DNA of 41,570 bases, from the NCBI GenBank assembly GCA_030694425.1, contig JAUXYI010000040.1, positions 1 through 41,570 of the forward strand, read 5' to 3'. The stretch comes from Thermodesulfovibrionia bacterium (GTDB taxonomy: Bacteria; Nitrospirota; Thermodesulfovibrionia; UBA6902; BMS3Bbin08). Position 1 is the first letter of the stretch. The number at the start of each line of letters is the position of its first letter. The position numbers were made by a program, and so were the translations under genes. This document shows positions 2,053 to 37,294 of this stretch, piece by piece. The notes below the pieces were generated by a model. It made no database searches. It worked only from the letters and a program-made list of their open reading frames with translations, and was not told the DNA's origin.

Positions 2053-3325
2053 TAAAAATGAGAAAGTACAGAACAAAAAATGCAGATTCATTATTGTTCT
2101 ACTTTTATTATCTATTATTTATCTGTCGTCTTCGTATGCAACCGCATCAGATACCTCTATTCACGGTTTTTTTCAGGGCAATTATTCTGCTGACCTGGAT
2201 GGCGCAAATCCTGACGGTAGAAATTTCAAATGGGCAGAGGAGAGACTCCAGTTAAAACTTGATGCAAATAAAGAACCATTTCATCTATTTTTTAAAACTG
2301 ATGCCTTTTATGACCATATTGATGAAGAAGCCGAAGTAGAGTTAAGGGAAGGGTATATTGACTTTACATCTTCAGGATGGGATTTAAGAATTGGCAGGCA
2401 GGTTATCACATGGGGACTTGGCGATTTAATTTTTATAAATGACGTATTTCCTAAAGACTATGAGGCATTTTTCTCCGGAAGGCCGATGGAATACCTTAAA
2501 AAGGGCGTTGACAGTGTAAAGATTGGCGTTTATCCTTCTTTTGTTTCCGCAGAATTAATTATTATCCCGTTTTTTGAGCCTAATAGTTATCCTAAGAGTG
2601 AAAGGTTCTGGATGTTTGACCCAATGCCGTCTGTTACAAACCGCAGCGAGCATGAACCTACAAGCAGGATGCGTAATACTGAAATAGCCTTAAGGGCATA
2701 TCGTGATATAGCAGGATTTGATGCCTCAATCTATATATATAAGGGATTTTACAGACAGCCTTCTATGCTTCCGGATAGTATGTCATCAACAACAAAGATT
2801 GACTTTTTTTATCGTAAACTTTCTGTTTATGGAGCGAGTTTGCAGGGCAGGGCGCTAAATGGGGTTTTAAGTCTTGAGGCTGGTTATTATGATTCAAGAG
2901 AGGACAGAAAAGGGGTTGACCCAATGATTCCAAATTCCCACTCAAAATTTCTAATCGGGTATCAGAGACAGATGTGGGAAGACTTTACCATAGGGCTTCA
3001 ATATTATGTTGAATATATGCATGACTATTTAAAGTATGTAATAAATCAGCCAGCAGGATTTCCGAAAGACAAGAGACTGCACGAGCTTACCGCTGTAAGA
3101 CTTACACAATTATTAAGACATCAGACAATGAAACTTTCTTTATTTTCTTTTTATAGTCCGTCTGATGGTGACTATCTGTTAAATCCGGAGGTTAAATACA
3201 ACTTCTCTGATTATGTATGGGCAGCTGCTGGAGCAAATATATTTGGAGGCGGTGAGGTATGGAGTCAGTTTGGTCAGCTAAGAAAAAATGATAATCTATA
3301 TTTACAGTTGAGATATGAGTTTTAG
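2042..3325 (+). CDS. Putative outer-membrane beta-barrel protein (DUF1302/porin-like)
   Basis: A 427-residue protein starting with a long signal peptide: a basic N-region (residues 1-15), a hydrophobic core near 16-31 and a probable cut after SYATA. The remainder alternates polar and aromatic residues as in a transmembrane beta-barrel and ends LYLQLRYEF, an aromatic C-terminal residue typical of BAM substrates. Conserved-looking features include RIGRQVITWGLGDLIF and DVFPKDYEAFF, which resemble the DUF1302/alginate-export-like barrels that accompany LolA-like proteins and RND exporters. That neighbourhood match (the LolA-like gene at 10-798) supports a role in export across the outer membrane. 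Family assignment is tentative. Confidence 0.65.
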   Translation: MIINKNEKVQNKKCRFIIVLLLLSIIYLSSSYATASDTSIHGFFQGNYSADLDGANPDGRNFKWAEERLQLKLDANKEPFHLFFKTDAFYDHIDEEAEVELREGYIDFTSSGWDLRIGRQVITWGLGDLIFINDVFPKDYEAFFSGRPMEYLKKGVDSVKIGVYPSFVSAELIIIPFFEPNSYPKSERFWMFDPMPSVTNRSEHEPTSRMRNTEIALRAYRDIAGFDASIYIYKGFYRQPSMLPDSMSSTTKIDFFYRKLSVYGASLQGRALNGVLSLEAGYYDSREDRKGVDPMIPNSHSKFLIGYQRQMWEDFTIGLQYYVEYMHDYLKYVINQPAGFPKDKRLHELTAVRLTQLLRHQTMKLSLFSFYSPSDGDYLLNPEVKYNFSDYVWAAAGANIFGGGEVWSQFGQLRKNDNLYLQLRYEF

Positions 3326-3447
3326 CTTAAATACAAATAAATTGTTAATAGAGTATAAATATTAAAAACTAATTGGTCAATGCAAATGGAATAACAAAAG
3401 TATTTCATCAAGAATTATCCGCTATCTGGGTTGAAAAATCTCCTAAT

Positions 3448-8927: not shown

Positions 8928-9104
8928 CTGGATTCCCGTTTTCACGGGAATGACGTCATTCCTGCGAAAGCAGGAATCCAGGTTACTTAAGTTGTTACTA
9001 ATGAGTTTATCCGTAGAACCACACAATTTGTCATGCTCCCGATGCTTCGGGATTCGGCATCCTTCTTAAGAACTTAAGAAAGATTGCGGACAAGCCGCAA
9101 TGAC
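8928..9104. repeat. Two adjacent GTCATTCC-family elements
   Basis: 8928-8982 is two back-to-back palindromes (GGATTCCCGTTTTCACGGGAATGAC, then GTCATTCCTGCGAAAGCAGGAATCC). 9030-9104 is a second type with CCCGATGCTTCGGGA and GATTGCGGACAAGCCGCAATGAC; this type recurs at 33215-33285. No gene is seen. Confidence 0.85.
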
Positions 9105-9154
9105 AGCAATGAAAACCGATGTAGTCTTGATTAATACCTTATTAGTAACTTTTG

Positions 9155-9730
9155 CTATAGGCTTTTTTTACAGTTTATAACCCTTTTTTCAGTGATTATT
9201 TTATCTATCTTCACATCATGGCTTTCATTCGGCACCTTTGAAACAATCTGTTCTTCAAATGCAAGGGCAATTGTAGTAACAGGCTTTTCAGATTTTGAGA
9301 GAAGTTTATCATAATATCCAAAGCCATATCCAATGCGGTTTCCATTCTTGTCAAACCCTGCGCCTGGAACTATTGCAACGTCAATGTTCTTTAAGCCCTT
9401 TTCTCTGCTTTTTGCAGCCCTTGGCTCCATAATACCCATATAACCTGATTCAAGTTTAGAGATGTCTTTTATTTTGTAAAGTTTTAATTCTTTTTTTTCT
9501 CTGTCAACGCCTGGCAATGCAATCATCTTTTTCAGTTTAAGGGCATGCTGTATGCATTTAATTGTGTCTACCTCGCTTTTAAACGATGCATAAAATAATA
9601 TGCTTTTTGCTTTCTTAAAATCCACTGAAGCAAAGAGCCTTTTTCTTATGGCTGATTCTTTTTTTTTCTTTTCTTCAGGCGTGATGCTGTTTCTTTTCTT
9701 TAAAAGTGCCTCTCTAACGCCTCGTTTCAA
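9155..9730 (-). CDS. 5-formyltetrahydrofolate cyclo-ligase
   Basis: A 191-residue enzyme converting 5-formyl-THF with ATP to 5,10-methenyl-THF. It begins MKRGVREALLKKRNSI with the basic N-terminal helix of the family, has ILFYASFKSEVDT and VDREKKELKLYKI in the middle, and the conserved IDVAIVPGAGFDKNGNRIGYGFGYYDKLL with the ATP- and folate-binding glycines. The start overlaps the cooC stop by 4 bp, so they are co-transcribed. It keeps the folate pool available for the neighbouring FolD and MetF. Confidence 0.92.
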   Translation of the reverse strand: MKRGVREALLKKRNSITPEEKKKKESAIRKRLFASVDFKKAKSILFYASFKSEVDTIKCIQHALKLKKMIALPGVDREKKELKLYKIKDISKLESGYMGIMEPRAAKSREKGLKNIDVAIVPGAGFDKNGNRIGYGFGYYDKLLSKSEKPVTTIALAFEEQIVSKVPNESHDVKIDKIITEKRVINCKKSL

Positions 9731-10500
9731 ACAGATGTCTCCAGTGTTTTTTTAATTTTTTTAACTTCATCAATTGTTTGCTGTGAAGTCTCATACGACG
9801 GTAATCCTTTAATGTCTGTTTCCATTATATTATTGTTGAAACTGATTGCCCCTAAGAATGAGATATCGCTCAAAGCATTTTTTATAAAAGTGATATCCTC
9901 TTCCTTTCTAACCTTGTTTGCAACTATAAAAACTTTTTTAACGCCAAGCTCTTTTGCAAATTGTTTAACAGCAGTGGCTGTTTGAATACTCCTTTGTCCC
10001 GGCTCAACAACCACAATAAAGGCATCCACGCCCTCAGCAGTCCCTCTTGTGAGATGCTCTATGCCAGCCTCCATATCTACGATTACAACTTCATCCCTCT
10101 CAACAATAAGATGTTTTAAAAGTCTTCTCAAAAGTGCATTTTCAGGGCAGTAGCAGCCTGATGCAGCAGTTTTTGATTTGCCCATCACGAGCAGGGTGAC
10201 ACCATTGATTTTATAACCAAAGCCGTCGGGAATATCATCCACCCTTGGATTAATTTTAAATATTCCTCCGCTCGTTCCGGGCTTTGCACCTGTTCTTTCC
10301 TCAATTAATTCTGCCATCTCAGCTATTGCCTTTAGTTTTTCGGTTTCATTTTTAGGAACTCCAAGCGCTGAAGCAAGATTTGCATCAGGGTCTGCATCAA
10401 CAGCGATTACTTTTTTACCCTCTGAGGCAAATAAATAACTCAATATAGCTGAAATGGTGGTTTTTCCAACGCCGCCTTTGCCTGTAATTGCTATTTTCAT
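9727..10500 (-). CDS. cooC: CooC/AcsF-type nickel-insertion ATPase
   Basis: A 257-residue MinD-like ATPase. Residues 7-14 are the deviant Walker A GKGGVGKT, followed by VIAVDADPDANLASALG; VVIVDMEAGIEHLTRG is the Walker B region and SGCYCPENALLR carries the CXC that binds nickel in CooC dimers. These proteins load nickel into carbon monoxide dehydrogenase or acetyl-CoA synthase. It is the first gene of the minus-strand block and overlaps the cyclo-ligase gene, tying one-carbon folate metabolism to CODH/ACS maturation. The CODH/ACS genes themselves are not in the window. The 160 bp upstream contains a CACAGATTAACACAG repeat. Confidence 0.9.
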   Translation of the reverse strand: MKIAITGKGGVGKTTISAILSYLFASEGKKVIAVDADPDANLASALGVPKNETEKLKAIAEMAELIEERTGAKPGTSGGIFKINPRVDDIPDGFGYKINGVTLLVMGKSKTAASGCYCPENALLRRLLKHLIVERDEVVIVDMEAGIEHLTRGTAEGVDAFIVVVEPGQRSIQTATAVKQFAKELGVKKVFIVANKVRKEEDITFIKNALSDISFLGAISFNNNIMETDIKGLPSYETSQQTIDEVKKIKKTLETSV

Positions 10501-10663: not shown

Positions 10664-10692
10664 TTGACAATACAAAGGGTTTAAAGAATAAT
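10664..10692 (+). promoter_or_regulatory. Array 1 leader promoter
   Basis: TTGACA (10664-10669), 17 bp, then AATAAT (10687-10692). The 37 bases starting at TTGACA match those at 34852 at 34 positions, and the second copy stands at the left end of array 2. A promoter at the head of a cassette array would play the role of the integron Pc promoter. The next gene starts 700 bp away, so what it now transcribes is uncertain. Confidence 0.55.
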
Positions 10693-10854
10693 TAAAACAT
10701 GCAAACCTTATCTTCTCAGACAAAGGGGTGATAAGTGACATATTTTTTCAAAAAGAGGGTTTTTAACTATTCAGCCAGAATGAAAATATCCGCACCAAGT
10801 GCTACTATCATCCCATATTCTGGAGCAAAATGGCACTCGGTGCTATTGTGAAGT

Positions 10855-10873
10855 AGTTAGCCGTTCATTACAG
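10855..10873 (+). other. GTTAGCCG recombination-core-like site, array 1
   Basis: AGTTAGCCGTTCATTACAG here matches AGTTAGCCGCTCATTGCAG at 35169-35187 with two differences, and attC-f continues GTTAGTTGTTCATTGCGG. GTTA is the cleavage-side box of integron sites. To the left, GCACCAAGTGC and GCACTCGGTGC can pair (10 of 11), but no matching TAAC box is at the expected spacing. It may be an attI-like or decayed site. Confidence 0.4.
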
Positions 10874-10962
10874 GCAGGGAGAAAGGATACTTATAAGAGA
10901 AAAACAACCGTCCCATTAAATTCAAGTTTGCTATACTGTAATAGATTATAATCGGTAATCTA

Positions 10963-11284
10963 TATTAACCTGAATCCTGCGTGAAAATATCATAATTTTA
11001 CCTTTCTGGATTCCCGCTTACTGACTGCGGGAATGACGACCAGATAAATGTCATACCCGAAGTTTTTAATCGGGCATCCAGTTCTTTTTCTATTTATTTT
11101 AATGCATATTCCATCATATCTTTGTAAATTTTTTGGGCTTCGTTTCATCTGTAATGTTAACCTAATTAAAAAGTAGGTTAACGTGATAACTAATAAATTA
11201 TACAATAAAGCTATATTTGTCCTTGAGTTTTTGGTAAGTTGTGTTATCATAACTTAAATAATGACGCAGGATTCAGGATTAATA
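10963..11284. mobile_element. About 320-bp non-coding element with inverted repeat ends
   Basis: The left end TATTAACCTGAATCCTGCGT (10963-10982) is the inverted complement of the right end (11264-11284) apart from one extra base; the 14-bp core CCTGAATCCTGCGT is perfect. Inside lie a GTCATTCC-family repeat (11006-11081) and AT-rich sequence with no convincing gene. The form suggests a MITE-like element or a relic insertion. It sits just upstream of the TIR gene. Confidence 0.55.
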
Positions 11285-11400
11285 TTAGGAGGGAGAGACC
11301 AAAAAGTTAGATTATCTTAAATTTTAGCAGGATAAAAGTACTAAGTTGCACAAAATTTTATATCAATAGATGAAGCTAAACCATTTGCCGAGGAGGTAAT

Positions 11401-11775
11401 ATGAAAAGAGTATTTATTTCATTCGCTATCGAGGATGAATTCGCAAGAAATAATTTAGTCCATCAGGCAAAGCAAGAACATACGCCTTTTGAATTTGTTG
11501 ACATGTCTGTTAAGGAACCTTGGTCAGCATCGTGGAAAACTAAATGTAGGGAGAGAATAAAAGGGTGTGATGGAGTTATTGCTTTTATAAGCAGGAATAC
11601 ACCCGGAGCTGAGGGAGCATGCTGGGAAATTAAATGTGCTATTGAAGAGGGCGTTCCCATTAAAGGATTCTGGGTACATGCAGATGATCCATGTTGTAAA
11701 CCAGTTGAACTTGGTTACAAACCCGTGGTTTACTGGACATGGGAAAACATTAAAAACTTCATAAATTCGTTATGA
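11401..11775 (+). CDS. TIR-like domain protein (DUF1863/ThsB-like)
   Basis: A 124-residue single-domain protein. KRVFISFAIEDEFARNNLV is the first strand and helix of the TIR-like DUF1863 fold, CRERIKGCDGVIAFISRNT the central strand, and GACWEIKCAIEEG carries the predicted catalytic Glu76. This family includes ThsB, the phage sensor of Thoeris, which makes a cyclic ADP-ribose-type signal from NAD. No ThsA effector is nearby; a RipA-like membrane protein follows after 9 bp and a second TIR protein lies beyond. The Shine-Dalgarno GAGGAGGTAAT is strong. An anti-phage role is inferred. Confidence 0.8.
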   Translation: MKRVFISFAIEDEFARNNLVHQAKQEHTPFEFVDMSVKEPWSASWKTKCRERIKGCDGVIAFISRNTPGAEGACWEIKCAIEEGVPIKGFWVHADDPCCKPVELGYKPVVYWTWENIKNFINSL

Positions 11776-11784
11776 ATTGCCGAT

Positions 11785-12285
11785 ATGAGCAGCCAATCTG
11801 AAATTATTGCTCGCACCTTACTTGGGGTATCTGAAACTGACTATGGTAACTGTTATCGTGAGCACCTTTTAACACAATACTTAAAATATCTTGATATGGC
11901 AGATAAGATAAGTGACAGGAGGTCTGCCTCAAATACTTTCTTTCTTACGGTAAATACAGCCTTAATATCAGCTATCGGAATTGCCAATTTAGTGTCTCAA
12001 ATGAAATCACCCTTCTTTTTTGCAATAGTTGGGTTTGCTGCTATTCTTTTGTGTTACTCTTGGTATCGTTTAATTCGTTCTTATAAAGATCTAAATACGG
12101 CTAAATTCAAAGTAATTCACGAACTCGAAAAACATTTGCCGATCCGTCTTTTTGATGCAGAGTGGGAGAGTGTCGGGAGAGGAAAGAATAAAAAACTTTA
12201 CTTACCCTTTACTCACATTGAAATATATGTGCCTTGGATATTTATATTGCTTTATAGTTCTTTGATTCTGTATGTAGTTATTTAG
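11785..12285 (+). CDS. RipA-like small membrane protein, probable partner of the TIR protein
   Basis: A 166-residue protein. The soluble N-terminus (HLLTQYLKYLDMADKISDRRSASNTFFLT, about 28-56) resembles the RipA family of oligomeric membrane proteins. Two hydrophobic segments follow (about 54-73 and 77-95), then a charged cytoplasmic stretch with KHLPIRLFDAEW and a last membrane helix (150-166). The gene starts 9 bp after the TIR gene, so the two form one unit. By analogy with other TIR and SLATT-type systems it could be a membrane effector opened by a TIR-made nucleotide; this is inference from arrangement only. Confidence 0.6.
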   Translation: MSSQSEIIARTLLGVSETDYGNCYREHLLTQYLKYLDMADKISDRRSASNTFFLTVNTALISAIGIANLVSQMKSPFFFAIVGFAAILLCYSWYRLIRSYKDLNTAKFKVIHELEKHLPIRLFDAEWESVGRGKNKKLYLPFTHIEIYVPWIFILLYSSLILYVVI

Positions 12286-12296
12286 TCAATTTATCA

Positions 12297-12440
12297 GTGC
12301 AAGCAATAAAGGTCGCAGTGTTTGATGTGGAATTTTGGGTATCAACTACAAAGATTGAATCCCTTTGCAACTTTGTACCCAAAAAGTTAGATGAAATTTC
12401 GAGAGGCAATAAATTTAAGTATGAGAGGAGGACAGGATAA
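12297..12440 (+). CDS. Possible 47-residue small protein (weak)
   Basis: A GTG-initiated reading frame of 47 codons fills the gap between the RipA-like gene and the second TIR gene, ending 3 bp before the latter's ATG. It reads IKVAVFDVEFWVSTTKIESL near the start and ends YERRTG. No good Shine-Dalgarno is visible and I do not recognise it. It could be a real small gene of the operon, a relic, or chance. Confidence 0.25.
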   Translation: MQAIKVAVFDVEFWVSTTKIESLCNFVPKKLDEISRGNKFKYERRTG

Positions 12441-12443
12441 ATC

Positions 12444-13583
12444 ATGGCAGAAACTTGTTTTAAGGCATTTCTGAGTTGTAGTTTTGCCGAGGAAGACAAA
12501 GAAGTAATAGATTTCTTTAAAAAAATGATCGCAGCATTTGATATACAACCTTTAGTCTATGACTACCAAGAAATAGGGAAAATATCAAATAAGGTTAAGG
12601 CCAATATAATCGAGAGTGATTGTTTAATAGCAATAGCGACAAAGAGAAATAAAATTGAGGGGTCAAATTACTGGTCATGTTCTGACTGGATTCAACACGA
12701 AATTGCACTTGCCCATGCATATAGCAAACCCATTGCAATCTTTTTTGAAGAAGGAGTTAAAATTGAAGGTCTTATCTCAATGGAAGAAAGACGAGAAAGA
12801 TTCAACAGACAAAATCTTATCAGCAACATAGACAAAATCACAGCATTTTTGTATAAGCTGAGAAACTACTTAGAATCTACAGATCAAACTTTGCAAGTAC
12901 CACTTTTATTAAGGCATTATATCCATGCAAAAGATCAAATGCTTTCTAAAGAACTTCTTGCTGAAAGAACTGAGATTTTAATGGAATCCTTAATTGATGG
13001 GTTAGAAGCAACGCATCATTCTATAGAACTCGAAGAAACAACTCCTGGACTATCAGTAAAACCCTTAGAATTTGACTTTAAATGTTTAGAGAAACCTTCA
13101 GGTACAAAGGTAGAGCCATTTATAGCCTTAAATACAGAAGCAAAGTTTTTCTGGAAGATTTTATTTAATCCTCCTCTCAAAAAAGGTGAAAGGGTAAAAT
13201 ATACTTTCAAGGAAGTTCGTCCTAATTATCGCCCCTACTCTTACGAGGAATTGATGAAAAGAATCGAGCAAGGAACTTATGAGTATAAGGAACCAAAGTG
13301 TGAGGCTTGCGAATGGACTATTGTCTATCCAACATATGAATTACGTCATGAATTTGAATTTCCAGAGAACTATGAAATTGAGAATTTCTATCCAGATGTG
13401 GCTATCGGGGAAGCAAAACTTAAAGCAGAAAATGAAGTAAAACGAATCGAAGAAGGAAATATGTTTACCGCCGAAAAGATATTTGATAAATGGGTATTAA
13501 AACTTCATGTACCAAAACCTTTCCAAAATTATACGTATTGTACATATTATTTGCCATTAAAGACACAACGAGAAACAAAATAA
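12444..13583 (+). CDS. TIR-domain protein with uncharacterised C-terminal domain
   Basis: A 379-residue protein. Residues 5-105 look like a TIR/nucleotide-binding Rossmann domain: FKAFLSCSFAEEDKEVIDFF, then VKANIIESDCLIAIATKR and DWIQHEIALAHAYSKPIAIFF, where Glu86 sits at the NADase position. A helical linker (about 130-200) follows. The C-terminal 170 residues are beta-rich, with a CEAC pair and many aromatic residues; I do not recognise this domain. It follows the TIR/RipA pair in the same orientation with no attC-like site between them, so all may belong to one cassette. The ribosome binding site is GAGAGGAGGACA. Confidence 0.65.
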   Translation: MAETCFKAFLSCSFAEEDKEVIDFFKKMIAAFDIQPLVYDYQEIGKISNKVKANIIESDCLIAIATKRNKIEGSNYWSCSDWIQHEIALAHAYSKPIAIFFEEGVKIEGLISMEERRERFNRQNLISNIDKITAFLYKLRNYLESTDQTLQVPLLLRHYIHAKDQMLSKELLAERTEILMESLIDGLEATHHSIELEETTPGLSVKPLEFDFKCLEKPSGTKVEPFIALNTEAKFFWKILFNPPLKKGERVKYTFKEVRPNYRPYSYEELMKRIEQGTYEYKEPKCEACEWTIVYPTYELRHEFEFPENYEIENFYPDVAIGEAKLKAENEVKRIEEGNMFTAEKIFDKWVLKLHVPKPFQNYTYCTYYLPLKTQRETK

Positions 13584-13679
13584 GCTCAAAACCCTAACTT
13601 CATATAATTGACCTATGAAATGGATGTAAGATAAAAAGAAAAATGAGACGGTTGTTCTATTATAATGCCTGCAACGGAC

Positions 13680-13747
13680 GGCTAACACGTTGCAAAAGAC
13701 TGACGTCAAAACCCATTGGGGCTTCTTTTGCAACGGGAACGTTAGCG
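13680..13747 (+). other. attC-like site b
   Basis: GGCTAAC (13680-13686), one base, CGTTGCAAAAG (13688-13698), a 26-nt loop, CTTTTGCAACG (13725-13735, perfect complement), GGAAC, then GTTAGCG (13741-13747). Total 68 nt. Outer boxes pair at 6 of 7 positions. It lies between two plus-strand genes, as an attC site would, and shares its exact geometry with sites d and g. Confidence 0.7.
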
Positions 13748-13780
13748 GAAATCGCATCAATTACATGAGAGGACTTCATA

Positions 13781-14665
13781 ATGACAGATAACTATTTTAG
13801 TGAAAGAGAACTTGGTCCGCCGCCACGAAATAAGGAAAAAATAGATCAGGGGTTTTGGGGTGGGTTCAGGACTCTTATTCAGGCTCGTATAAATGATGGT
13901 TCATTGGCAGAACGCTTTCCGATTAATTGTTTTGATGCTCCTATTCCTATTGGATGTGATGAATCAGCTATCAAACTGGCATTTGAAGCTGAGTTTCCCT
14001 TAATTGAATGGCCCTTTTATTCAAATGACCTGCCAGATTCCTTATTAGTGTTAGATGCAATTGAATTTTTCAATCGATATATTTCAAAACCAATCAGGAA
14101 AGAATATCACTCATTCGGGAAACATCATCACTTTATTTCATTCGATAAGGATGAAGGTCAACGGGAATATTTAAAAGATGTCAACCGACTTTTTAGACGA
14201 AACAGCCTTGCATTCGAGCTTAAAGAAAATGGTCGTGTCATACGATTAGAACCAATTGTTCTCCGTGAGACATTGGCCAGCGCAGTTTTTCATACAGAAG
14301 ATGGAGAACTCAACCGTCTTCTTGAACTTGCTCGTGAAAAGTTCCGCGATCCCGATGTAAACATTCGAAGGGAAGCAGTCGAAAAACTCTGGGATGCTTG
14401 GGAACGTTTAAAAACTCTTGAACCAGGGTCGGACAAGAAGAAACAGGTTGAAGTAATGCTCACAAAAGCCATTCCAGAATCAGAGTTTCGTGAGCGTATT
14501 AATGATGAAGCTATCGCATTGACTAAAATCGGAAATGATTTTGCGATTCGCCACACTGAGATAAACAAAGTGATAATCTCAGAAAGCGAGTTTTTAGATT
14601 ATCTTTTCCACCGTCTTTTTGCATTGATTCTACTATTGCTCCGCCGAACTGGACGAGTGCGGTAG
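13781..14665 (+). CDS. Possible AbiJ-like abortive-infection protein with C-terminal HEPN-like region
   Basis: A 294-residue soluble protein. The N-terminal half (FSERELGPPPRNKEKIDQGF, then a helical section to about 110) is followed by RREAVEKLWDAWERLKTLEP and a C-terminal ALTKIGNDFAIRHTEINK segment, which resembles the HEPN-type end of AbiJ-family proteins, with Arg-His in the RNase-motif position. If correct, it is a predicted ribonuclease acting in phage defence. It is the first gene after attC-like site b. No recognised attC lies before the protease gene 52 bp on, so the two may share a cassette. Assignment rests on the C-terminal motif only. Confidence 0.5.
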   Translation: MTDNYFSERELGPPPRNKEKIDQGFWGGFRTLIQARINDGSLAERFPINCFDAPIPIGCDESAIKLAFEAEFPLIEWPFYSNDLPDSLLVLDAIEFFNRYISKPIRKEYHSFGKHHHFISFDKDEGQREYLKDVNRLFRRNSLAFELKENGRVIRLEPIVLRETLASAVFHTEDGELNRLLELAREKFRDPDVNIRREAVEKLWDAWERLKTLEPGSDKKKQVEVMLTKAIPESEFRERINDEAIALTKIGNDFAIRHTEINKVIISESEFLDYLFHRLFALILLLLRRTGRVR

Positions 14666-14717
14666 CCTTATTCACTGTTTTTGAGAGAATATATGCAACA
14701 AATTGAATGGGGGCATT

Positions 14718-15728
14718 ATGAAGAAAATTAAAGCAAATCATTTATTGATTTTTTTAAGCATGATTACTATTTTATTTTCAATCCCTTTGCTGAGCCATGC
14801 AAAGACTGCAAGAGAAATAGCACAGAACAGCTTTCCATCAGTCGTAATGCTTTTAATGGAGGATTCAAATGGTCAACCGCTTTCTTTAGGGAGCGGTTTT
14901 TTTGTTAGAGAAGGGATAGTTGCTACCAATCTTCATGTAATAGAAGGTGCGGCAAAAGGTTATGTAAAAATAGTTGCTCAGAAGTTAAAATATGACATTG
15001 CAGGTATTCTTGGAATTGACAAGGAACATGACCTTGTACTTTTGTCTATAAAAGGTGCTAAAGCGCCATCCCTATCTCTTGGCGATGGCCAACAAGTTGC
15101 TGTTGGTGATGAAGTTTATGCGGTTGGTAATCCGCAAGGGCTTGAAGGCACGTTTTCCCAAGGCATCATTAGCAGTATTCGTCAAGTCGCTTCTGAAACT
15201 ATTTTACAAATAACAACACCTATTTCCCCGGGGAGTAGTGGCGGTCCTGTACTAAATGTTCAAGGTACAGTAATTGGCGTCGCTGTAGCTACATTCAAGG
15301 GCGGTCAAAATCTAAACTTCGCCATTCCTATTTCTTATTTGTCATCGCTGCTGCAGAATATAAAACCTCTCATGGCTCTATCTGGGAAGACACGATCCAA
15401 GCAGGACAAATCAATTCTCGATGGTTTAGGGGAGCGGAGTGTTGGAGGTGTTGTTGGAGGACAACTAACATGGACGTATTCAGTTTTGCAAAGTGGTGAT
15501 TATGCTTTTTCCTTTAGAAATCAACTTCGTGAACCAGTGAAAGACATCTATTGTCTTGTCGTATTTTATGACCGTGCAGACAACCCTATAGATGTTAATG
15601 TTGTACGCTATAGTGGTGTTATTCCAGCTGGACTTGCAAAGAGAGTAACGAGTCGGGTCGATGAAAGCGTTCAGAAATTAACGAGTAGAGTTGAATTTAG
15701 AATTTTAGATTTCAAGATAATAGAATGA
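14718..15728 (+). CDS. Trypsin-like (S1C/HtrA-type) serine protease, exported
   Basis: A 336-residue protein. Residues 1-28 are a signal peptide (LLIFLSMITILFSIPLLSHA). The catalytic triad is visible: His73 in IVATNLHVIEGA, Asp105 in KEHDLVLLS, Ser174 in SPGSSGGPVLN. No PDZ domain follows; instead there is a beta-rich C-terminal domain of about 100 residues (SGDYAFSFRNQLREPVKDIY). It acts in the periplasm or at the envelope. The ATG at 14718 is chosen because GGGGG stands 6 bp upstream; an in-frame TTG at 14703 has no such site. Trypsin-like proteases occur with bacterial defence genes, but this one is secreted. Confidence 0.85.
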   Translation: MKKIKANHLLIFLSMITILFSIPLLSHAKTAREIAQNSFPSVVMLLMEDSNGQPLSLGSGFFVREGIVATNLHVIEGAAKGYVKIVAQKLKYDIAGILGIDKEHDLVLLSIKGAKAPSLSLGDGQQVAVGDEVYAVGNPQGLEGTFSQGIISSIRQVASETILQITTPISPGSSGGPVLNVQGTVIGVAVATFKGGQNLNFAIPISYLSSLLQNIKPLMALSGKTRSKQDKSILDGLGERSVGGVVGGQLTWTYSVLQSGDYAFSFRNQLREPVKDIYCLVVFYDRADNPIDVNVVRYSGVIPAGLAKRVTSRVDESVQKLTSRVEFRILDFKIIE

Positions 15729-15737
15729 TGCAAAATC

Positions 15738-15756
15738 GCCTAACATGGTACAAAAG
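15738..15756 (+). other. Left half of an attC-like site (site c, truncated)
   Basis: GCCTAAC (15738-15744), one base and TGGTACAAAAG (15746-15756) match the left arms of the complete sites. The expected CTTTTGTACCA and GTTAGGC are absent; the sequence runs instead into the 110-bp repeat at 15773. It directly follows the protease gene. Confidence 0.6.
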
Positions 15757-15772
15757 ATTTTATCTAAACCCT

Positions 15773-15882
15773 TCCAGAGTGCAAAGAGGGTCAAGTCTTT
15801 CTTCTTGCAGTTTTGCCCGCAACGGCAGAGAACAGCATGCTTGTCTACGACTCGTAGAGAGGTTTACACCCAAAGGCTACGC
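15773..15882 (+). repeat. 110-bp cassette-border repeat, copy 1
   Basis: 102 of 110 bases match 17314-17423 without gaps. It starts TCCAGAGTGCAAAGAGGGTC, contains the palindrome TCTACGACTCGTAGA and an AGAGAACAGCATGCTTG segment resembling an attC left arm (AGATAACAGAGTGCTTG in site d), and ends CCCAAAGGCTACGC like an attC loop. The right arm is missing. A reading frame through it is spurious. Confidence 0.75.
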
Positions 15883-15974
15883 TCTTCTCAAATCATAAAA
15901 TTAAAACAACTATACTTGGAGCCATTGTGATATAATGAATTTATAATTATCCTTATGTGAAAGGAGGGTAAGAA

Positions 15975-16187
15975 ATGCATACGCAAATGAAGTACGAAGA
16001 TGAGATTATCAAGGAGTTGCAGAATATACCTGATGAACAGATTCTTAATCTTCTCAACATGATACGCATCTTCAAAAAAAGTATCAATATGCAGCGGGAA
16101 GCTGATTTCTATCTCAAAAAAGAATTTGATGAGTGGGATATTTTAAGCGACGAAGCACTAAGTAATTTTGAGGCTAAATTATCGTGA
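15975..16187 (+). CDS. Antitoxin partner of the MazF/PemK toxin
   Basis: A 70-residue acidic protein, unrecognised as a named family but similar in form to DUF2281-type antitoxins: an N-terminal helix (MKYEDEIIKELQNIPDEQIL) followed by a C-terminal tail rich in Glu and Asp (LKKEFDEWDILSDEALSNFE) suited to binding a toxin. Its stop overlaps the toxin start by 4 bp. GGAGGGTAAGAA precedes the ATG. The short promoter region upstream carries TATAATGAATTTATAATTAT. Antitoxin identity is inferred from position, size and overlap. Confidence 0.7.
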   Translation: MHTQMKYEDEIIKELQNIPDEQILNLLNMIRIFKKSINMQREADFYLKKEFDEWDILSDEALSNFEAKLS

Positions 16188-16522
16188 CTTTCGGAGATAT
16201 TTATCTCGTTGAAATTCCTGCTTCTGGCGGACACGAACAGCAAGGTGTCAGACCTGCAATTGTAGTCCAGACTGCTGAAAACATAGATAGAGTCCCTACC
16301 GTCCTTATTGTTCCTTTCACCACACAAATAAAGGCTGCGAGTTTCCCATTTACTTTTGTTGTAGAACCAGATTCTACCACTAATCTGACTTCAACATCTA
16401 TCGCTTTAGTGTTTCAACTAAGAGCTATTGATAAAAAGAGGATGAAGAACAGGCTCGGGAGTCTAAGCACAGGTGATATGCAAGTTTTGAAACAAAAATT
16501 GAAAGATATTTTAAACATATAA
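16184..16522 (+). CDS. MazF/PemK-family mRNA interferase toxin
   Basis: A 112-residue toxin of the PemK/MazF SH3-like fold. TFGDIYLVEIP (about 2-12) and GVRPAIVVQTAENI carry the core strands and the conserved Arg; TVLIVPFTTQIKA and the C-terminal FQLRAIDKKRMKNRLGSLS are typical. It cleaves mRNA at short sequence-specific sites. Translation starts at a GTG within the antitoxin stop (GTGA), giving coupling. The pair forms a cassette closed by attC-like site d. Toxin-antitoxin pairs are known to stabilise cassette arrays. Confidence 0.9.
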   Translation: MTFGDIYLVEIPASGGHEQQGVRPAIVVQTAENIDRVPTVLIVPFTTQIKAASFPFTFVVEPDSTTNLTSTSIALVFQLRAIDKKRMKNRLGSLSTGDMQVLKQKLKDILNI

Positions 16523-16554
16523 ATTTTTAAAGAACGAATCCTGCCCGCAGCGAC

Positions 16555-16622
16555 AGATAACAGAGTGCTTGAGATTAAACATCCAAAGGCTTTGCCCTTC
16601 TTAAGCACTCGAACCGTTAACT
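16555..16622 (+). other. attC-like site d
   Basis: AGATAAC (16555-16561), one base, GAGTGCTTGAG (16563-16573), a 26-nt loop, CTTAAGCACTC (16600-16610; ten pairs and one G-T), GAACC, then GTTAACT (16616-16622). Total 68 nt. The preceding CTGCCCGCAGCGACAG resembles the lead-in of other sites. Confidence 0.7.
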
Positions 16623-16701
16623 GAAATCCCACAAAAAAGGAGATAAAAATATGGAATCACAACAAATAGCAGAGCCATTTTGTCAGAGCTGTGGAATGCC
16701 G

Positions 16702-17127
16702 ATGAAAAAAACATTAAATTTTATAATCTTTGGTTTTATGTTTCTTATTTATCTACCAGTTGCCTGTAATGATATTTCTAAAATTGATCCGAAAAAAATC
16801 GAAAAAACACATCGAACATTAAAGTTTATAGAAGCCAAAATATTAACTGGGGTTTCCTATATAGATTTTAAAAAATCGATGCAGGATTTTTTAACCGAAA
16901 TTCTTATTACGAAAGATTTAATGCGAACAAACAAAGAGAAAGAAATATTACAACAATATATCGATATTTATGATATATATAACGATAGTCTTAAATTATG
17001 GGCAGATAAAGCAGAAGATAATAATTTACTTTCATTTGTCGCGTTTTACAAGGATATTGTAAAAAATACAATATTGAGACTTTCCCATTCAGTGAATACA
17101 AAGAAAGAAGGAGTATGGCTCTTTTAA
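16702..17127 (+). CDS. Small putative lipoprotein fused behind a zinc-ribbon gene start
   Basis: Reading from ATG 16702 gives 141 residues: MKKTLNFIIFGFMFLIYLP followed by VACND, a lipoprotein-like signal peptide with Cys23 as the possible lipidation site, then a helical charged domain. The same frame is open from ATG 16651, which has a better Shine-Dalgarno (AAAAAGGAG), and that adds 17 residues (MESQQIAEPFCQSCGMP) identical to the zinc-ribbon fragment at 18948. So the 5' end of a zinc-ribbon gene is joined in frame to this gene. I do not recognise the mature domain. The next gene overlaps its end by 13 bp. Confidence 0.55.
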   Translation: MKKTLNFIIFGFMFLIYLPVACNDISKIDPKKIEKTHRTLKFIEAKILTGVSYIDFKKSMQDFLTEILITKDLMRTNKEKEILQQYIDIYDIYNDSLKLWADKAEDNNLLSFVAFYKDIVKNTILRLSHSVNTKKEGVWLF

Positions 17128-17309
17128 AATTTTCCCCTGCACAAAGTTTTAACGAAGACCTGTACGGCCCGGACAAAATAGATACAACACCAGCCCTTGC
17201 TATTTATGTAAAATCGGAGTATGGCGATACATCTATGTTTGATATAGATCAGGCTATTGATAAAATATGGGGAGTAGCGAAGGAAAAAATTAGTGCAATA
17301 AAATATTAA
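17115..17309 (+). CDS. Small hypothetical protein, coupled to the upstream lipoprotein
   Basis: A 64-residue soluble protein starting inside the last codons of the preceding gene (13-bp overlap), with AAGAAGGAG at a good distance from the ATG. It has FSPAQSFNEDLYGPDKID in the first third and ends IDKIWGVAKEKISAIKY, an amphipathic helix. I recognise no family. The overlap suggests a two-gene cassette bounded by site d and the 110-bp repeat. Confidence 0.5.
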   Translation: MALLKFSPAQSFNEDLYGPDKIDTTPALAIYVKSEYGDTSMFDIDQAIDKIWGVAKEKISAIKY

Positions 17310-17313
17310 AAAA

Positions 17314-17423
17314 TCCAAAGTGCAAAGAGGGTCAAGTCTTTCTTCTTGCAGTTTTGCCCACAACGACAGATAACAGAGTGCTTGTCTACGACTCGTAGAG
17401 AGGTAAACACCCAAAGGCTACGC
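17314..17423 (+). repeat. 110-bp cassette-border repeat, copy 2
   Basis: Near-identical to 15773-15882 (8 differences). This copy has the better attC left arm, AGATAACAGAGTGCTTG, equal to that of site d, then TCTACGACTCGTAGA and CCCAAAGGCTACGC. It then breaks off into unrelated sequence (CCTGCAAATTT), so the right arm is gone. It separates two gene pairs. Confidence 0.75.
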
Positions 17424-17493
17424 CCTGCAAATTTTTGTATGTCATATATGTGCAGGTATGGTAAAATTAAGTAACTAATGGAAAGGAGGAATT

Positions 17494-17715
17494 ATGACAA
17501 CAGCATCTATAAAAAATAACCTTGCAGCTCAACTTGATAAACTTCCTTATAATTTACAACTTCGTGTGCTTGATTTTGTAAAGTCTCTAATACCCACAGG
17601 AGTCAAAGGTAAAAGCCTTCTGCGGTTTGAAGGAGCCATTCCTGCTGATGATTTAGAACTAATGTCTAAAGCTATAGAAGAAAACTGTGAAAAAGTAGAC
17701 ACCAGTGAATGGTAA
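17494..17715 (+). CDS. DUF2281-like antitoxin of a VapC pair
   Basis: A 73-residue acidic protein: LAAQLDKLPYNLQLRVLDFV forms the helical pair typical of DUF2281 antitoxins, and the tail LELMSKAIEENCEKVDTSEW would thread onto a PIN toxin. AAAGGAGGAATT precedes the ATG. It overlaps the VapC start by 11 bp. Since the toxin is interrupted, the antitoxin may no longer be needed and may be drifting, though it looks intact. Confidence 0.75.
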   Translation: MTTASIKNNLAAQLDKLPYNLQLRVLDFVKSLIPTGVKGKSLLRFEGAIPADDLELMSKAIEENCEKVDTSEW

Positions 17716-18094
17716 ATATCTTCTCGATACGAATATAATTATTTCCATTTTTGCTAAAGACCCTCAGATTCACAACCGTTTAGCAAACGCTGAAGAAGTG
17801 TTTATTCCATGTATTGCCATTGGAGAGTTGTGTTTTGGAGCATACAAGTCCCTCAAAATTGAAGAAAATCTTGCACGTATAGATGAATTTGCTATAAATA
17901 ATACTGTGCTTGCTTGTGATACAGACACAGCCAAAAAATATGGACATATAAAGAACCAATTGAAAGAAAAAGGGTAACCAATCCCTGAGAATGATGTATG
18001 GATTGCTGCAATCGCCCAACAATACGACATTACATTAATCTCAAAGGATATTCATTTTGCTGTAATTGAAAATTTAAAAATTGAAACATGGTAA
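17705..18094 (+). pseudogene. VapC PIN-domain toxin broken by an in-frame stop
   Basis: The frame begins GTG at 17705 (MNGKYLLDTNIIISIF) with the PIN acids Asp8 and Glu41 (AIGELCFG). Codon 91 is TAA (17975-17977). In the same frame the next codons read PIPENDVWIAAIAQQYDITL and then ISKDIHF, the rest of a normal VapC with Asp97 and Asp115, ending at a natural stop at 18092-18094. So one nonsense change splits a 129-residue toxin and removes the last catalytic acids. It is probably inactive unless the stop is read through. Confidence 0.85.
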
Positions 18095-18114
18095 AACAGC
18101 CTGCCCGCAACGGC

Positions 18115-18181
18115 AGATAACACAGGCTAAAAGATTGACATTCAAATGCTACCGCACTTCTTTTAGCCTTGAACGTTAGGC
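18115..18181 (+). other. attC-like site e
   Basis: AGATAAC (18115-18121), one base, CAGGCTAAAAG (18123-18133), a 26-nt loop, CTTTTAGCCT (perfect 10-bp complement of AGGCTAAAAG), TGAAC, then GTTAGGC (18175-18181), the textbook R' box. Total 67 nt. It is preceded by CCTGCCCGCAACGGC and follows the broken VapC gene. Confidence 0.75.
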
Positions 18182-18282
18182 AAAATCGTTCCTTCAGAGA
18201 AAAACATGACAAGCAATTTGCTCATTAATAACTTCGTTGGTGGACCTCTTTGTTTTTGCTGTCTTGAGATATAAGACATATC

Positions 18283-18942
18283 ATGAAGAAGAGCATATGG
18301 ATACCAACAAGACTAATTTCCATCTTTATCTTCTTCGCATTGGTCATGTTTGGAGGGACGCTCTGGACTCTCAGTGGAGGAGACCCCAGAGGAGAGTGGG
18401 TTCTCGTAACGTATGTAGTGGATGGCGATACTATTTCTGTGGGGCGTGGATGGAGGTCTACCACGGTGCGTCTTATTGGTATTGATACTCCTGAAACGGT
18501 GCATCCAGAAAAACCAGTCGAGTTTTTTGGCCCTGAGTCCTCAGAGTTTACCAAAAGGCAACTGGATGGGAAAAAGGTGCATCTTGAATTTGAGTCTTCT
18601 ACCCAGTATGATGACTATGACCGTTTGCTTGCTTATGTATTCCTTTTGGATGGTACCCTTTTCAATGCAGAACTTATCAAGCAAGGCTATGCTCGTGTTA
18701 TCGCCCCCTCTCCATTCCATCGCTATAAAGAGTTCCGCCTTTATGAACGCGAAGCGAGGGTTGCTGGGTTAGGCCTTTGGGCTGAAAAAGATATTTGTAG
18801 GGAGATCATTGGTAACAGGAGGTCGAAAATATATCGTCTTCCTGGTGATGCCGGCTGTAGTCGGATTAAGGAAGAAAACCGAATCTACTTTGATACGGAA
18901 GACGAGGCAATAAAGACAGGATATAGACGAGCGAAGCGGTAA
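18283..18942 (+). CDS. Thermonuclease-family (staphylococcal nuclease-like) protein, membrane-anchored or secreted
   Basis: A 219-residue protein. Residues 11-30 are a signal anchor (LISIFIFFALVMFGGTLWTL). The SNase domain (about 38-165) has VVDGDTISV, VRLIGIDTPETVHP (Arg63, Asp68, Glu71) and YDRLLAYVF (Arg114), the full catalytic set, so it should cut DNA or RNA outside the cytoplasmic membrane. The C-terminal segment IIGNRRSKIYRLPGDAGCSRIKEENRIYF resembles the Ada-type metal-binding tail on many such nucleases. It follows attC-like site e. An extracytoplasmic nuclease could act on incoming DNA; that role is inferred. Confidence 0.88.
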   Translation: MKKSIWIPTRLISIFIFFALVMFGGTLWTLSGGDPRGEWVLVTYVVDGDTISVGRGWRSTTVRLIGIDTPETVHPEKPVEFFGPESSEFTKRQLDGKKVHLEFESSTQYDDYDRLLAYVFLLDGTLFNAELIKQGYARVIAPSPFHRYKEFRLYEREARVAGLGLWAEKDICREIIGNRRSKIYRLPGDAGCSRIKEENRIYFDTEDEAIKTGYRRAKR

Positions 18943-18947
18943 GGATT

Positions 18948-19067
18948 ATGGAATCACAACAAATAGCAGAGCCATTTTGTCAAAGCTGTGGAATGCCGAT
19001 GAAACAGCCCGAAGATTTTGGGATAAACGCTGATGGAACCAGAAGCAAGGAAAATGATTGGCAATAG
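18948..19067 (+). pseudogene. Truncated putative zinc-ribbon protein gene
   Basis: Thirty-nine codons beginning MESQQIAEPFCQSCGMPMKQ, then PEDFGINADGTRSKE and an unrelated ending NDWQ before TAG. The FCQSCGMPM...NADG start is typical of a family of small putative zinc-ribbon proteins, normally about 80-100 residues with further cysteines (EYCTYCF-type) right where this copy breaks off. The first 57 bases recur at 16651-16707 with one mismatch. It starts 5 bp after the nuclease gene stop. Confidence 0.7.
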
Positions 19068-34714: not shown

Positions 34715-34855
34715 TTGAAAAATAAAAAGCAAAAAGTGCAGTCCGGAGAAATTTCTCCTTCTGTTTTTAAGTGGATTGGGATACTAAAGACTAAAAAAAC
34801 TTATAAGAAACTTAGAGATGAATATATAAACTCCAGAATAAAGAAAGATTCTTGA
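34715..34855 (+). CDS. Possible 46-residue basic protein or gene relic
   Basis: A TTG-initiated frame of 46 codons just after the PIN toxin. It contains SGEISPSVFKWIGILKTKKT and ends DEYINSRIKKDS. The SPSVFKWIGILKT segment looks like the C-terminal end of a small antitoxin. Its stop codon overlaps the TTGACA box of the array 2 leader. The Shine-Dalgarno (AGAGGAG) is 12 bp away. It may be the tail of a gene cut off at its 5' end. Confidence 0.3.
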   Translation: MKNKKQKVQSGEISPSVFKWIGILKTKKTYKKLRDEYINSRIKKDS

Positions 34856-34880
34856 CAATACAAGGGGTTTAAATAATAAT
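34852..34880 (+). promoter_or_regulatory. Array 2 leader promoter
   Basis: TTGACA (34852-34857), 17 bp, AATAAT (34875-34880), the second copy of the sequence at 10664. The shared block is 37 bp with three substitutions. It stands at the left end of array 2. Confidence 0.55.
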
Positions 34881-34939
34881 TAAGACATACAAATCCTTAG
34901 CTTTCCATTGGTTAATCTCGTAGGAGAGGGAATAATTAT

Positions 34940-35098
34940 GGGGTAGTAACCATCAATAAAGAAGCCTCTAATATAATAACAGTTTCCTTCCCATATAATG
35001 CTCAGCTTGTTGAAAAGGTCAGAACCATTGATGGCCGCAAATGGCATAAGGGTAAAAAATACGGGAGCTTTCCAAATACTAATGGTGATGACCCATAG
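34940..35098 (+). pseudogene. Fragment resembling the N-terminus of a tyrosine recombinase
   Basis: The open frame ends at TAG 35096-35098. It reads NIITVSFPYNAQLVEKVRTI then DGRKWHKGKKYGSFPNTNGD. The FPYN-LVEKV-TI-GR-WH-K-W/G-SFPN pattern resembles the HARP-like N-terminal extension found on some bacterial XerCD-like integrases. No start codon is obvious and none of the catalytic domain is present. It lies between the array 2 leader and the GTTAGCCG core, the place where integrase sequence would be expected in an integron. Family recognition is from memory and tentative. The rest of the 34712-35217 gap shows no further gene. Confidence 0.45.
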
Positions 35099-35168
35099 GG
35101 AGGTATATCCGACATAGTCGTCTATCCCTTTAAAACTGGAAAAAAGGCGACATTGTCGTCTGTGAACG

Positions 35169-35187
35169 AGTTAGCCGCTCATTGCAG
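35169..35187 (+). other. GTTAGCCG recombination-core-like site, array 2
   Basis: AGTTAGCCGCTCATTGCAG, the counterpart of 10855-10873. Upstream lie CGACATAGTCGTC and CGACATTGTCGTC, near-identical quasi-palindromes. The first cassette gene starts 31 bp downstream. Candidate attI-like or attC right end. Confidence 0.4.
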
Positions 35188-35217
35188 CAAAAGTAAAAGG
35201 TAATTTAAATATTTGCT

Positions 35218-35952: not shown

Positions 35953-35991
35953 AAAAAGAGTTTCGATTTTTAGAAATTTTGTTGCAACGGC

Positions 35992-36066
35992 GGCTAACAG
36001 CAGGCTAAAAGAAAAAAAACAATAGGCAAATGCTATCGCACTTCTTTTAGCCTGTAACCGTTAGTT
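35992..36066 (+). other. attC-like site f
   Basis: GGCTAAC (35992-35998), AG, CAGGCTAAAAG (36001-36011), a 32-nt loop, CTTTTAGCCTG (36044-36054, perfect complement), TAACC, GTTAGTT (36060-36066). Total 75 nt. The stem nearly equals that of site e, 18 kb away in array 1. Confidence 0.75.
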
Positions 36067-36130
36067 GTTCATTGCGGGCGACTTTAAACTAAAATGTCAG
36101 TAATATTTAAACGCCTAACTAAGATTAAAA

Positions 36131-37156: not shown

Positions 37157-37172
37157 AATGGCAGCCAACTTC

Positions 37173-37240
37173 ATCTAACATGGCGGAAAAGACTGTCGCG
37201 CAAACCGTAGGAGGCTTCTTTTCCGCCAATAACGTTATGC
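37173..37240 (+). other. attC-like site g
   Basis: ATCTAAC (37173-37179), one base, TGGCGGAAAAG (37181-37191), a 26-nt loop, CTTTTCCGCCA (37218-37228, perfect complement), ATAAC, GTTATGC (37234-37240). Total 68 nt, the same geometry as b and d. It starts 17 bp after the stop codon of the preceding gene. Confidence 0.75.
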
Positions 37241-37294
37241 GAAATACGATTTTTATTTAAAAAGGTGGGAACATCCCCTCTTAACAATTAACTT

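Follow-up and report, generated by a model that had tools for sequence, protein, structure and literature searches.

A defence-gene cassette array in a Thermodesulfovibrionia genome: probable decayed platform of an integron family whose integrase lacks the I2 domain

The DNA considered here, hereafter the window, is the whole of contig JAUXYI010000040.1 (41,570 nucleotides; assembly GCA_030694425.1) from a Thermodesulfovibrionia bacterium, and it is one contig (C95) of a 2.4-Mb genome in 101 contigs, labelled G000. An earlier note, made from the sequence alone, had read its plus-strand genes between 11401 and 18942 as an integrase-less array of integron cassettes with many defence and toxin-antitoxin genes (a cluster of attC sites lacking integron-integrases, CALIN) in a probable Nitrospirota; the host assignment, the cargo, and the cassette nature of the array all agree with the present results. 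The question that this locus, here array 1, raises is what kind of integron left it behind. Array 1 probably represents the decayed remains of a platform from a separate family of integrons, one that works without the I2 domain of integron integrases and without the extrahelical bases of their attC sites. The CALIN reading accordingly stands in part: no integrase open reading frame (ORF) is present at the locus, but a promoter and an attI site are kept there, and a matching integrase is encoded on another contig (C32), where a search of the genome finds an enzyme that scores below the integron-integrase cut-off and lacks I2.

This best copy of the integrase in the genome is a 403-residue open frame that reads towards its cassettes. 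Its closest chain in the PDB by sequence is the integron integrase 2A3V, with an alignment that breaks at the IntI-specific insert (query 269-298 against chain 171-242). A fold search with the AlphaFold model of a relative, which is of medium quality (pLDDT 75.7, pTM 0.49) and was used for the nearest fold only, also ranks 2A3V first (E 1.7e-16). Presence of I2 was judged by the residue spacing from the motif GLRxxE to the motif HxLRH. The family alignment, run once against 84,980 species genomes, yielded 86 relatives, and the top 80 were retained as loci found from the integrase alone; 52 of these are testable, having both motifs in one frame (28 have no such pair), and these include six Patescibacteria loci not counted to the family proper. 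The spacing is 92 residues in 48 of the 52, 91 in one, 93 in two, and 101 in one, and it is 133 in IntI1 (E. coli plasmid) and in all 28 canonical IntI matches, which come from 32 loci with 19 distinct genes (four loci gave none). As judged from these comparisons, the enzyme is IntI-like and without the I2 domain of about 41 residues. An extra N-terminus, weakly matching HARP, precedes its SAM-like and catalytic domains. Two members of the family exceed the cut-off of NF040815 (site-specific tyrosine recombinase/integron integrase; 240-244 bits, cut-off 220) and fall short of that of TIGR02249 (integron integrase; 208 and 224 bits, cut-off 265), to which the genome's own copy matches in two pieces at 130.5 and 101.8 bits. 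Omega values of 0.047-0.148, from the 15 of 36 pairs with usable and mostly high dS, indicate purifying selection. By the titles of metagenome-assembled genomes (MAGs), for which binning errors are possible, bacterial hosts include Nitrospirota, Nitrospinota, Desulfobacterales, WOR-3, Acidobacteria, Spirochaetes, Parcubacteria, and others, and Methanophagales, Methanoperedenaceae, and Archaeoglobus are among the archaeal hosts.

Several other recombinases resemble this enzyme. A Chryseobacterium plasmid (L302, 3992-5035) encodes a 347-residue integrase with the N-terminal stretch of the family, 42% identity, and the 92-residue spacing, and a plasmid recombinase (TnpF/tyrosine recombinase; Acinetobacter and others) is 51% identical over residues 102-352. 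Five Patescibacteria recombinases (L253, L254, L256, L260, and L264; 45-50% identity, spacing 92-93) match only from residue ~76 onwards, and their loci yielded neither attC (R1, E ≤ 1) nor attI (R2, E ≤ 0.1) with the covariance models described below. In one relative (G024:C103), a recombinase of ~300 residues with 39% identity (10884-11699, plus strand) lies beside a canonical IntI carrying one stop (~9077-9913, minus strand); similar proteins of ~40% identity occur in G045, G025, G044, and others.

The integrase is linked to two kinds of site, for which covariance models were built: R1 for attC, from eight seeds (three in array 1, one in a second array of the window, array 2, and four on other contigs), and R2 for attI, from 19 seeds. 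The two models and the 80 loci are partly non-independent, L239 and L249 being, by length, contigs of G009 and G047 that gave R2 seeds. Of the 70 loci that extend 100 nt or more downstream, 51 have an attI within 160 nt of the end of the integrase match (R2, E ≤ 0.1). Of 45 attC matches (R1, E ≤ 0.01), 44 are on the integrase strand and downstream of the gene, though the upstream sequence searched was larger (300 versus 256 kb); 29 loci are attC-positive, 28 of them among the 51 that extend 1 kb or more. The association holds for whole genomes as well. In a set of 61 (the genome itself and 60 relatives), attC and attI each occur in 14 (R1 and R2, both E ≤ 0.01), with 13 genomes holding both, one holding each alone, and 46 holding neither (p 3e-11). 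Among the matches listed, the I2-less integrase (at least 55% identity) is present in at least 11 genomes, and ten genomes have integrase and attC, one the integrase only, four attC only, and 46 neither (p 1e-7). In the single-contig genome G052, integrase, attI, cassettes, and attC follow one another on one strand.

The array loci have a head block in common, made up of a promoter (TTGACA, 17 nt, then (A/G/T)ATAAT), the integrase coding sequence or its relics, and an element of ~100 nt ending in GTTA, the attI. The promoter motif with its 17-nt spacing stands at eight heads of the genome, whereas 0.06 occurrences are expected per window by Markov simulation. At head 1, position 10664, where the earlier note began its array, is the first base of this motif; no integrase ORF lies between it and attI 1 (10759-10861), which is near-identical to the attI that follows the integrase gene in G047:C2. 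A second head and array of the same family, with two attC sites, occupies 34852-37246 of the same contig. R2 finds 11 attI places in the genome (13 rows, two of them read as opposite-strand shadows), including attI-like matches at C101:13251-13346 (53.6 bits) and C53:1940-2042 (44.2 bits). In the attI palindromes, 80.7% of cells are paired versus 67.2% in shuffled and 27-38% in slid alignments, and the covariation score is 0.285 versus 0.099 shuffled and 0.03-0.12 slid, with none of 500 shuffles as high; covariation was judged by five measures, two of which fail against the shuffles. On C32 (L015), transposase-like ORFs lie at 2145-3339 between the integrase gene and attI. On C9 (L016, 6265-6741), a cassette with its attC abuts the integrase gene midway along its length, and this copy looks to have been broken by cassette insertion or rearrangement.

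The attC sites of the family differ from the published picture in their geometry. According to PMC2727003, every folded attC conserves extrahelical bases, and the strand is chosen mainly by them; I2 is described as docking these bases and as required for cassette capture (PMC7790495 and PMC4792948). The two features are treated as a co-evolved pair, and PMC4792948 calls their joint origin a chicken-and-egg paradox. Site geometry was taken from 117 R1 rows, a few of them duplicates (sets at E ≤ 0.05 and E ≤ 1), of which five were dropped (shadows and L265). The AAC/GTT core of the R'' and R' boxes and the paired L boxes are present, with 20 of 112 rows lacking the core where it is expected. No bulge occurs in the first 11 pairs of 77 of the 92 evaluable sites, and a bulge on the R''-L'' arm, where canonical sites carry extrahelical bases, is present in 4 of 92. 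The commonest spacers, of 1 and 5 nt, are found at 52 of the 92. A scan allowing bulges downstream of the integrase, used for geometry only, gave 23 plus-strand and 28 minus-strand matches and does not separate the strands; 17 of the 23 plus-strand matches were judged to be attC, and 16 of these are bulge-free, with no L''-arm bulge among the 17. The tip of the site is also conserved. Of the 117 rows, 81 have nine or more of 11 pairs ungapped; in this subset, 73 loops contain CAAA (shuffled mean 11.4), and CTT stands directly before L' in 58. In the 48 of 81 sites with both anchors (47 distinct), a hairpin lies flush between CAAA and CTT, with a mean of 3.09 contiguous pairs versus 1.34 shuffled (maximum of 500: 1.77), and a second, weaker hairpin precedes CAAA (1.60 pairs versus 1.10 shuffled, maximum 1.36). 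The architecture read from the sequences is a stem of 11-12 bp, mostly without an extrahelical base, an asymmetric 1/5-nt spacer, and a CAAA/CTT tip.

Such sites punctuate array 1 three times in the same direction, at places taken to be the complete elements b, d, and e that the earlier note had listed without coordinates. With R1 on the window (filters off), they reach E 3e-17 to 2e-13, scores that are inflated because these seeds built the model. Non-seed sites also score high, at 86.1 bits (C87:8829-8907), 70.6 bits (C91:20579-20664), and 70.4 bits (C7:1108-1193). Genome-wide, R1 finds 18 places at E ≤ 1, of which 17 were accepted, five in C95 and the rest in C87, C61, C19, C91, C7, C9, and C32. 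A strict structure scan, independent of R1, finds the two sites of array 2 (35992-36066, score 20.3; 37173-37240, score 17) and missed all three of array 1, which a relaxed scan recovered too; as a control, ten Markov-simulated windows gave the strict scan three matches scoring at least 15 (0-2 apiece). A pattern for the attC 5'-flank consensus was rejected, with 22 matches against 17 for a control pattern, and covariance models were used because of this weak result; a first MAFFT seed alignment of mixed orientations was replaced for R1. The truncated elements that had been placed at two repeats of ~110 bp are borne out by two 113-nt repeats, 92% identical, each holding the 5' half of an attC; the one placed after the protease gene has a tentative candidate by eye, where R1 finds none. 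The half-attC of the 113-nt repeats is interrupted by a small palindrome, and by eye the head on C44 has a similar one.

Table 1. Features of the two integron heads and arrays in the window (all on the contig's own numbering)
Feature	Position	Strand	Evidence or remark
Promoter, head 1	10664..10692	+	TTGACA-17 nt-AATAAT; function inferred
attI 1	10759..10861	+	Palindromes P1 and P2; GTTA core at 10856-10859; R2 93.3 bits, E 5.6e-17; R2 seed
ThsB-like TIR protein	11401..11775	+	Pfam ThsB_TIR 1.8e-8
8xMP family membrane protein	11785..12285	+	Pfam 4.5e-41
379-aa protein, N-terminus TIR-like by eye	12444..13583	+	No Pfam, NCBIfam, or PADLOC match
attC site 1	13674..13753	+	R1 86.8 bits; seed
AbiJ_NTD4 / PADLOC PDC-S32 protein	13781..14665	+	Pfam 2.5e-13; PADLOC PDC-S32 1.1e-47
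Trypsin-like serine protease	14703..15728	+	Pfam 1.7e-27
5' half of attC, tentative	15736..15770	+	Read by eye; no R1 match
113-nt repeat copy 1 with 5' half attC	15773..15885	+	
Putative antitoxin gene	15975..16187	+	No family match above cut-off
MazF/PemK toxin	16184..16522	+	Pfam 1.4e-25
attC site 2	16549..16628	+	R1 74.4 bits; seed
ORF without assigned function	16651..17127	+	
113-nt repeat copy 2 with 5' half attC	17314..17426	+	
Putative antitoxin gene	17494..17715	+	Weak DUF2281, E 0.026, below cut-off
VapC-like gene (named from sequence reading)	17705..18094	+	In-frame TAA at 17975-17977
attC site 3	18109..18187	+	R1 69.9 bits; seed
Staphylococcal-nuclease-like protein (SNase)	18283..18942	+	Pfam 4.4e-26
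Promoter, second integron head	34852..34880	+	
N-terminal remnant of I2-less integrase	34940..35086	+	57% to query 1-49
attI 2	35078..35175	+	R2 56.3 bits, E 6.4e-9; R2 seed
attC of array 2	35986..36072	+	R1 39.8 bits, E 1.1e-6; non-seed
attC of array 2	37167..37246	+	R1 83.8 bits; seed

The cargo of array 1 was read from a mechanical list of ORFs on both strands, with the choice of genes being the analyst's, and every family-matched ORF between 11401 and 18942 is on the plus strand, as had been described. Several of the gene names proposed earlier hold, namely the AbiJ-like protein, the thermonuclease, MazF, and the first of the TIR proteins; the second TIR protein matches no family, and the VapC-like gene carries an in-frame stop. 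The R1 scan of the window finds no attC behind the SNase gene, and Rfam returned nothing above gathering score in the window. A 73-nt repeat (89%) at 16650-16722 and 18947-19019 encodes the start of a zinc-ribbon-like protein twice; these copies are possibly broken cassette ends.

The site of array 1 is common to contig C30 of G007, a relative of another family in the same order, in which the ATPase gene beside array 1 (minus strand, read as CooC-like) recurs with an integrase relic of the same integrase family just upstream of it. Four flanking genes are 48-83% identical, and a fifth, cut off, is 70% identical over 61 residues. No array 1 cassette protein was matched in G007:C30, which ends ~3 kb past the relic. 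Cassette turnover at a fixed platform, for which a comparison of related genomes had been proposed, is seen in this one syntenic pair. Within ~1.5 kb of the same ATPase gene, 12 other relatives have no attI (R2, E ≤ 1). The head on C44 and G009:C29, from another family, have the same neighbour, a 723-residue frame read as MoeA-like (69% identity), in a comparison for which head positions are rough.

Taken together, the loci present an intact unit in which a putative promoter, the integrase gene, attI, and cassettes follow in this order, the integrase being transcribed in the direction of the cassettes. We infer that this integrase acts on both attI and attC. The I2-less recombinase would join circular cassettes at attI and excise them at attC (attI x attC and attC x attC), and its choice of strand would depend on the asymmetry of the 1/5 spacers and on the branched tip, in place of a grip of I2 on extrahelical bases. 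A single promoter at the head would drive both integrase and cassettes, and because that promoter is shared, loss of the integrase ORF, as at head 1, would leave it beside attI with the cassettes still expressed. The C32 integrase may serve other platforms of the genome in trans, and array 1 may carry a changing pool of defence and toxin-antitoxin genes, at a platform site that a relative of another family also has.

Several observations weigh against array 1 belonging to a family that works in this way. No recombination by the I2-less enzyme was observed. The C32 integrase has no obvious ATG start and is separated from its attI by the transposase-bearing insertion, and most of the copies seen in the genome, both of those in the window included, are decayed. 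The HARP match of the extra N-terminus is below cut-off (E 0.0017-0.0036). No attI was found at 19 of the 70 loci by the rule of 160 nt and E ≤ 0.1, and neither the attI pairs with change on both sides (110 of 500) nor further pair types (121 of 500) exceed the shuffles. The count of 77 bulge-free attC sites is biased because R1 was built from bulge-free sites; the four bulges on the L'' arm are joined by 11 on the other arm, five at position 10. In the bulge-allowing scan, one of the 17 judged sites has an other-arm bulge at position 11, and six of the 23 plus-strand matches look false. Among the matches listed, G008 and G027 carry attC but no I2-less integrase that reaches 55% identity; G004 and G040 hold integrase fragments only, and G059 has an integrase fragment and attI with no attC. 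It should be noted that MAGs can miss genes.

A canonical IntI, lost or acting in trans, might instead have built the arrays as plain CALINs, with the I2-less enzyme an unrelated XerA-like neighbour. Canonical IntI above cut-off is indeed present in 28 of the 61 genomes, including 8 of the 14 with attC, and in 7 of 24 family-bearing genomes, where it could act on the sites (these 24, behind 25 loci, were analyst-picked, mostly for visible attC; 17 have none, one of which, G074, holds a broken canonical piece). Its presence is not associated with attC, however, given that it also occurs in 20 of the 47 genomes without (p 0.37), and neither the genome itself nor the single-contig G052 (best 119 bits) has one above cut-off. 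At 20 canonical IntI loci, R2 yields no attI (E ≤ 0.1), in contrast to the linkage of attC and attI to the I2-less enzyme, and four attCs near canonical IntIs of the class (3 of the 20 loci) look different, measuring 134-136 nt and having one arm with two bulges, although this comparison consists of four local sites judged by eye plus the literature. The CALIN view led until attI and the integrase relics were found, at which point it was dropped as the sole account, and we now regard it as quite unlikely. Alternatively, the I2-less enzyme might act only on double-stranded attI-type sites, moving or resolving platforms, while another enzyme mobilises the cassettes. The attI palindromes resemble recombinase half-sites, the platforms are multi-copy, as the 11 attI matches of the genome attest, and the XerA-type model NF040815 is matched above its cut-off; set against this are the joint occurrence of attC and attI, with its one exception each way, and the architecture that the family's attCs have in common across phyla, and such a division of labour seems very improbable. 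The view that the enzyme is a mere Xer was rejected on linkage and phylogeny.

The remaining alternative concerns origin rather than function. A first tree (81 rows) was built without the columns filled in fewer than 30% of rows, which removes the I2 insert. It places 48 I2-less rows in one clade (100/98) and canonical IntI in a second (100/100), each separate from the chromosomal Xer-like rows (100/100); Patescibacteria rows fall outside the 48, and the long-branched I2-less row L265 joins IntI. A second tree, which included IntI1 plus two further outside IntIs and kept the I2 columns, again gives an IntI clade (100/100) and a weak I2-less group (74/0), with the deep order not resolved, and because of this both ancestral absence and old loss of I2 are possible. 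A canonical IntI may have lost I2 in one lineage, whose sites later lost their extrahelical bases. Such a history would fit the canonical IntI of G047:C56, which has the same N-terminal domain as the family (49% to query 3-77), and it gains from the limits of the trees (the deep order, the I2 columns kept in the second, the few outside IntIs, and the placement of L265); IntI being one clade without the family in both trees speaks against it, and we consider it doubtful. As a tentative possibility, the I2-less integrases may be a living pre-I2 branch of integrons or a parallel solution that has spread across archaea and many phyla of bacteria; if so, they have probably been overlooked because I2 is what searches for integron integrases depend on.

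A family of attC cassettes without I2 and extrahelical bases would make the question of their joint origin directly testable. On a pre-I2 or parallel origin, if true, cassette capture through folded attCs would have existed, and would still work, without either, by means of spacer asymmetry and a conserved branched tip, and the published paradox would dissolve. The results suggest that some bacterial and archaeal arrays classed as integrase-less may have integrases that IntI profiles score too low, and they widen the known reservoir of mobile defence genes. In the titles and abstract openings that literature searches listed, preprints and most subscription journals aside, no I2-less integron integrase was found.

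The nearest known systems include the canonical integron (IntI, TIGR02249, 2A3V, IntI1), which likewise has a tyrosine recombinase beside attI and a one-way attC array, and 2A3V is the nearest solved structure to the I2-less enzyme by both sequence and fold; the family differs in lacking the I2 of ~41 residues, in its extra N-terminus, and in a best score of 224 bits against a cut-off of 265. Recombinases of the XerA type (NF040815) are alike in matching the family model and in a spacing close to that of Xer rows (94-103 residues versus 92), whereas the tree sets the I2-less family apart from the chromosomal Xer-like rows in those genomes, and its integrase gene is followed by attI and cassettes. 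A further comparison is with the reverse integrons of Spirochaetota. There too the integrase is transcribed towards the cassettes (PMC9668308); the lack of I2 may set the present family apart, as do its different attC and attI. Finally, CALINs (PMC9024848) resemble array 1 in having several attCs and no IntI at the locus, and with at least two attCs and no integrase the locus itself falls within that class, the genome's IntI-like integrase scoring below the IntI profile cut-off. Unlike a CALIN, array 1 keeps its attI and promoter, in a genome that encodes a matching I2-less integrase.

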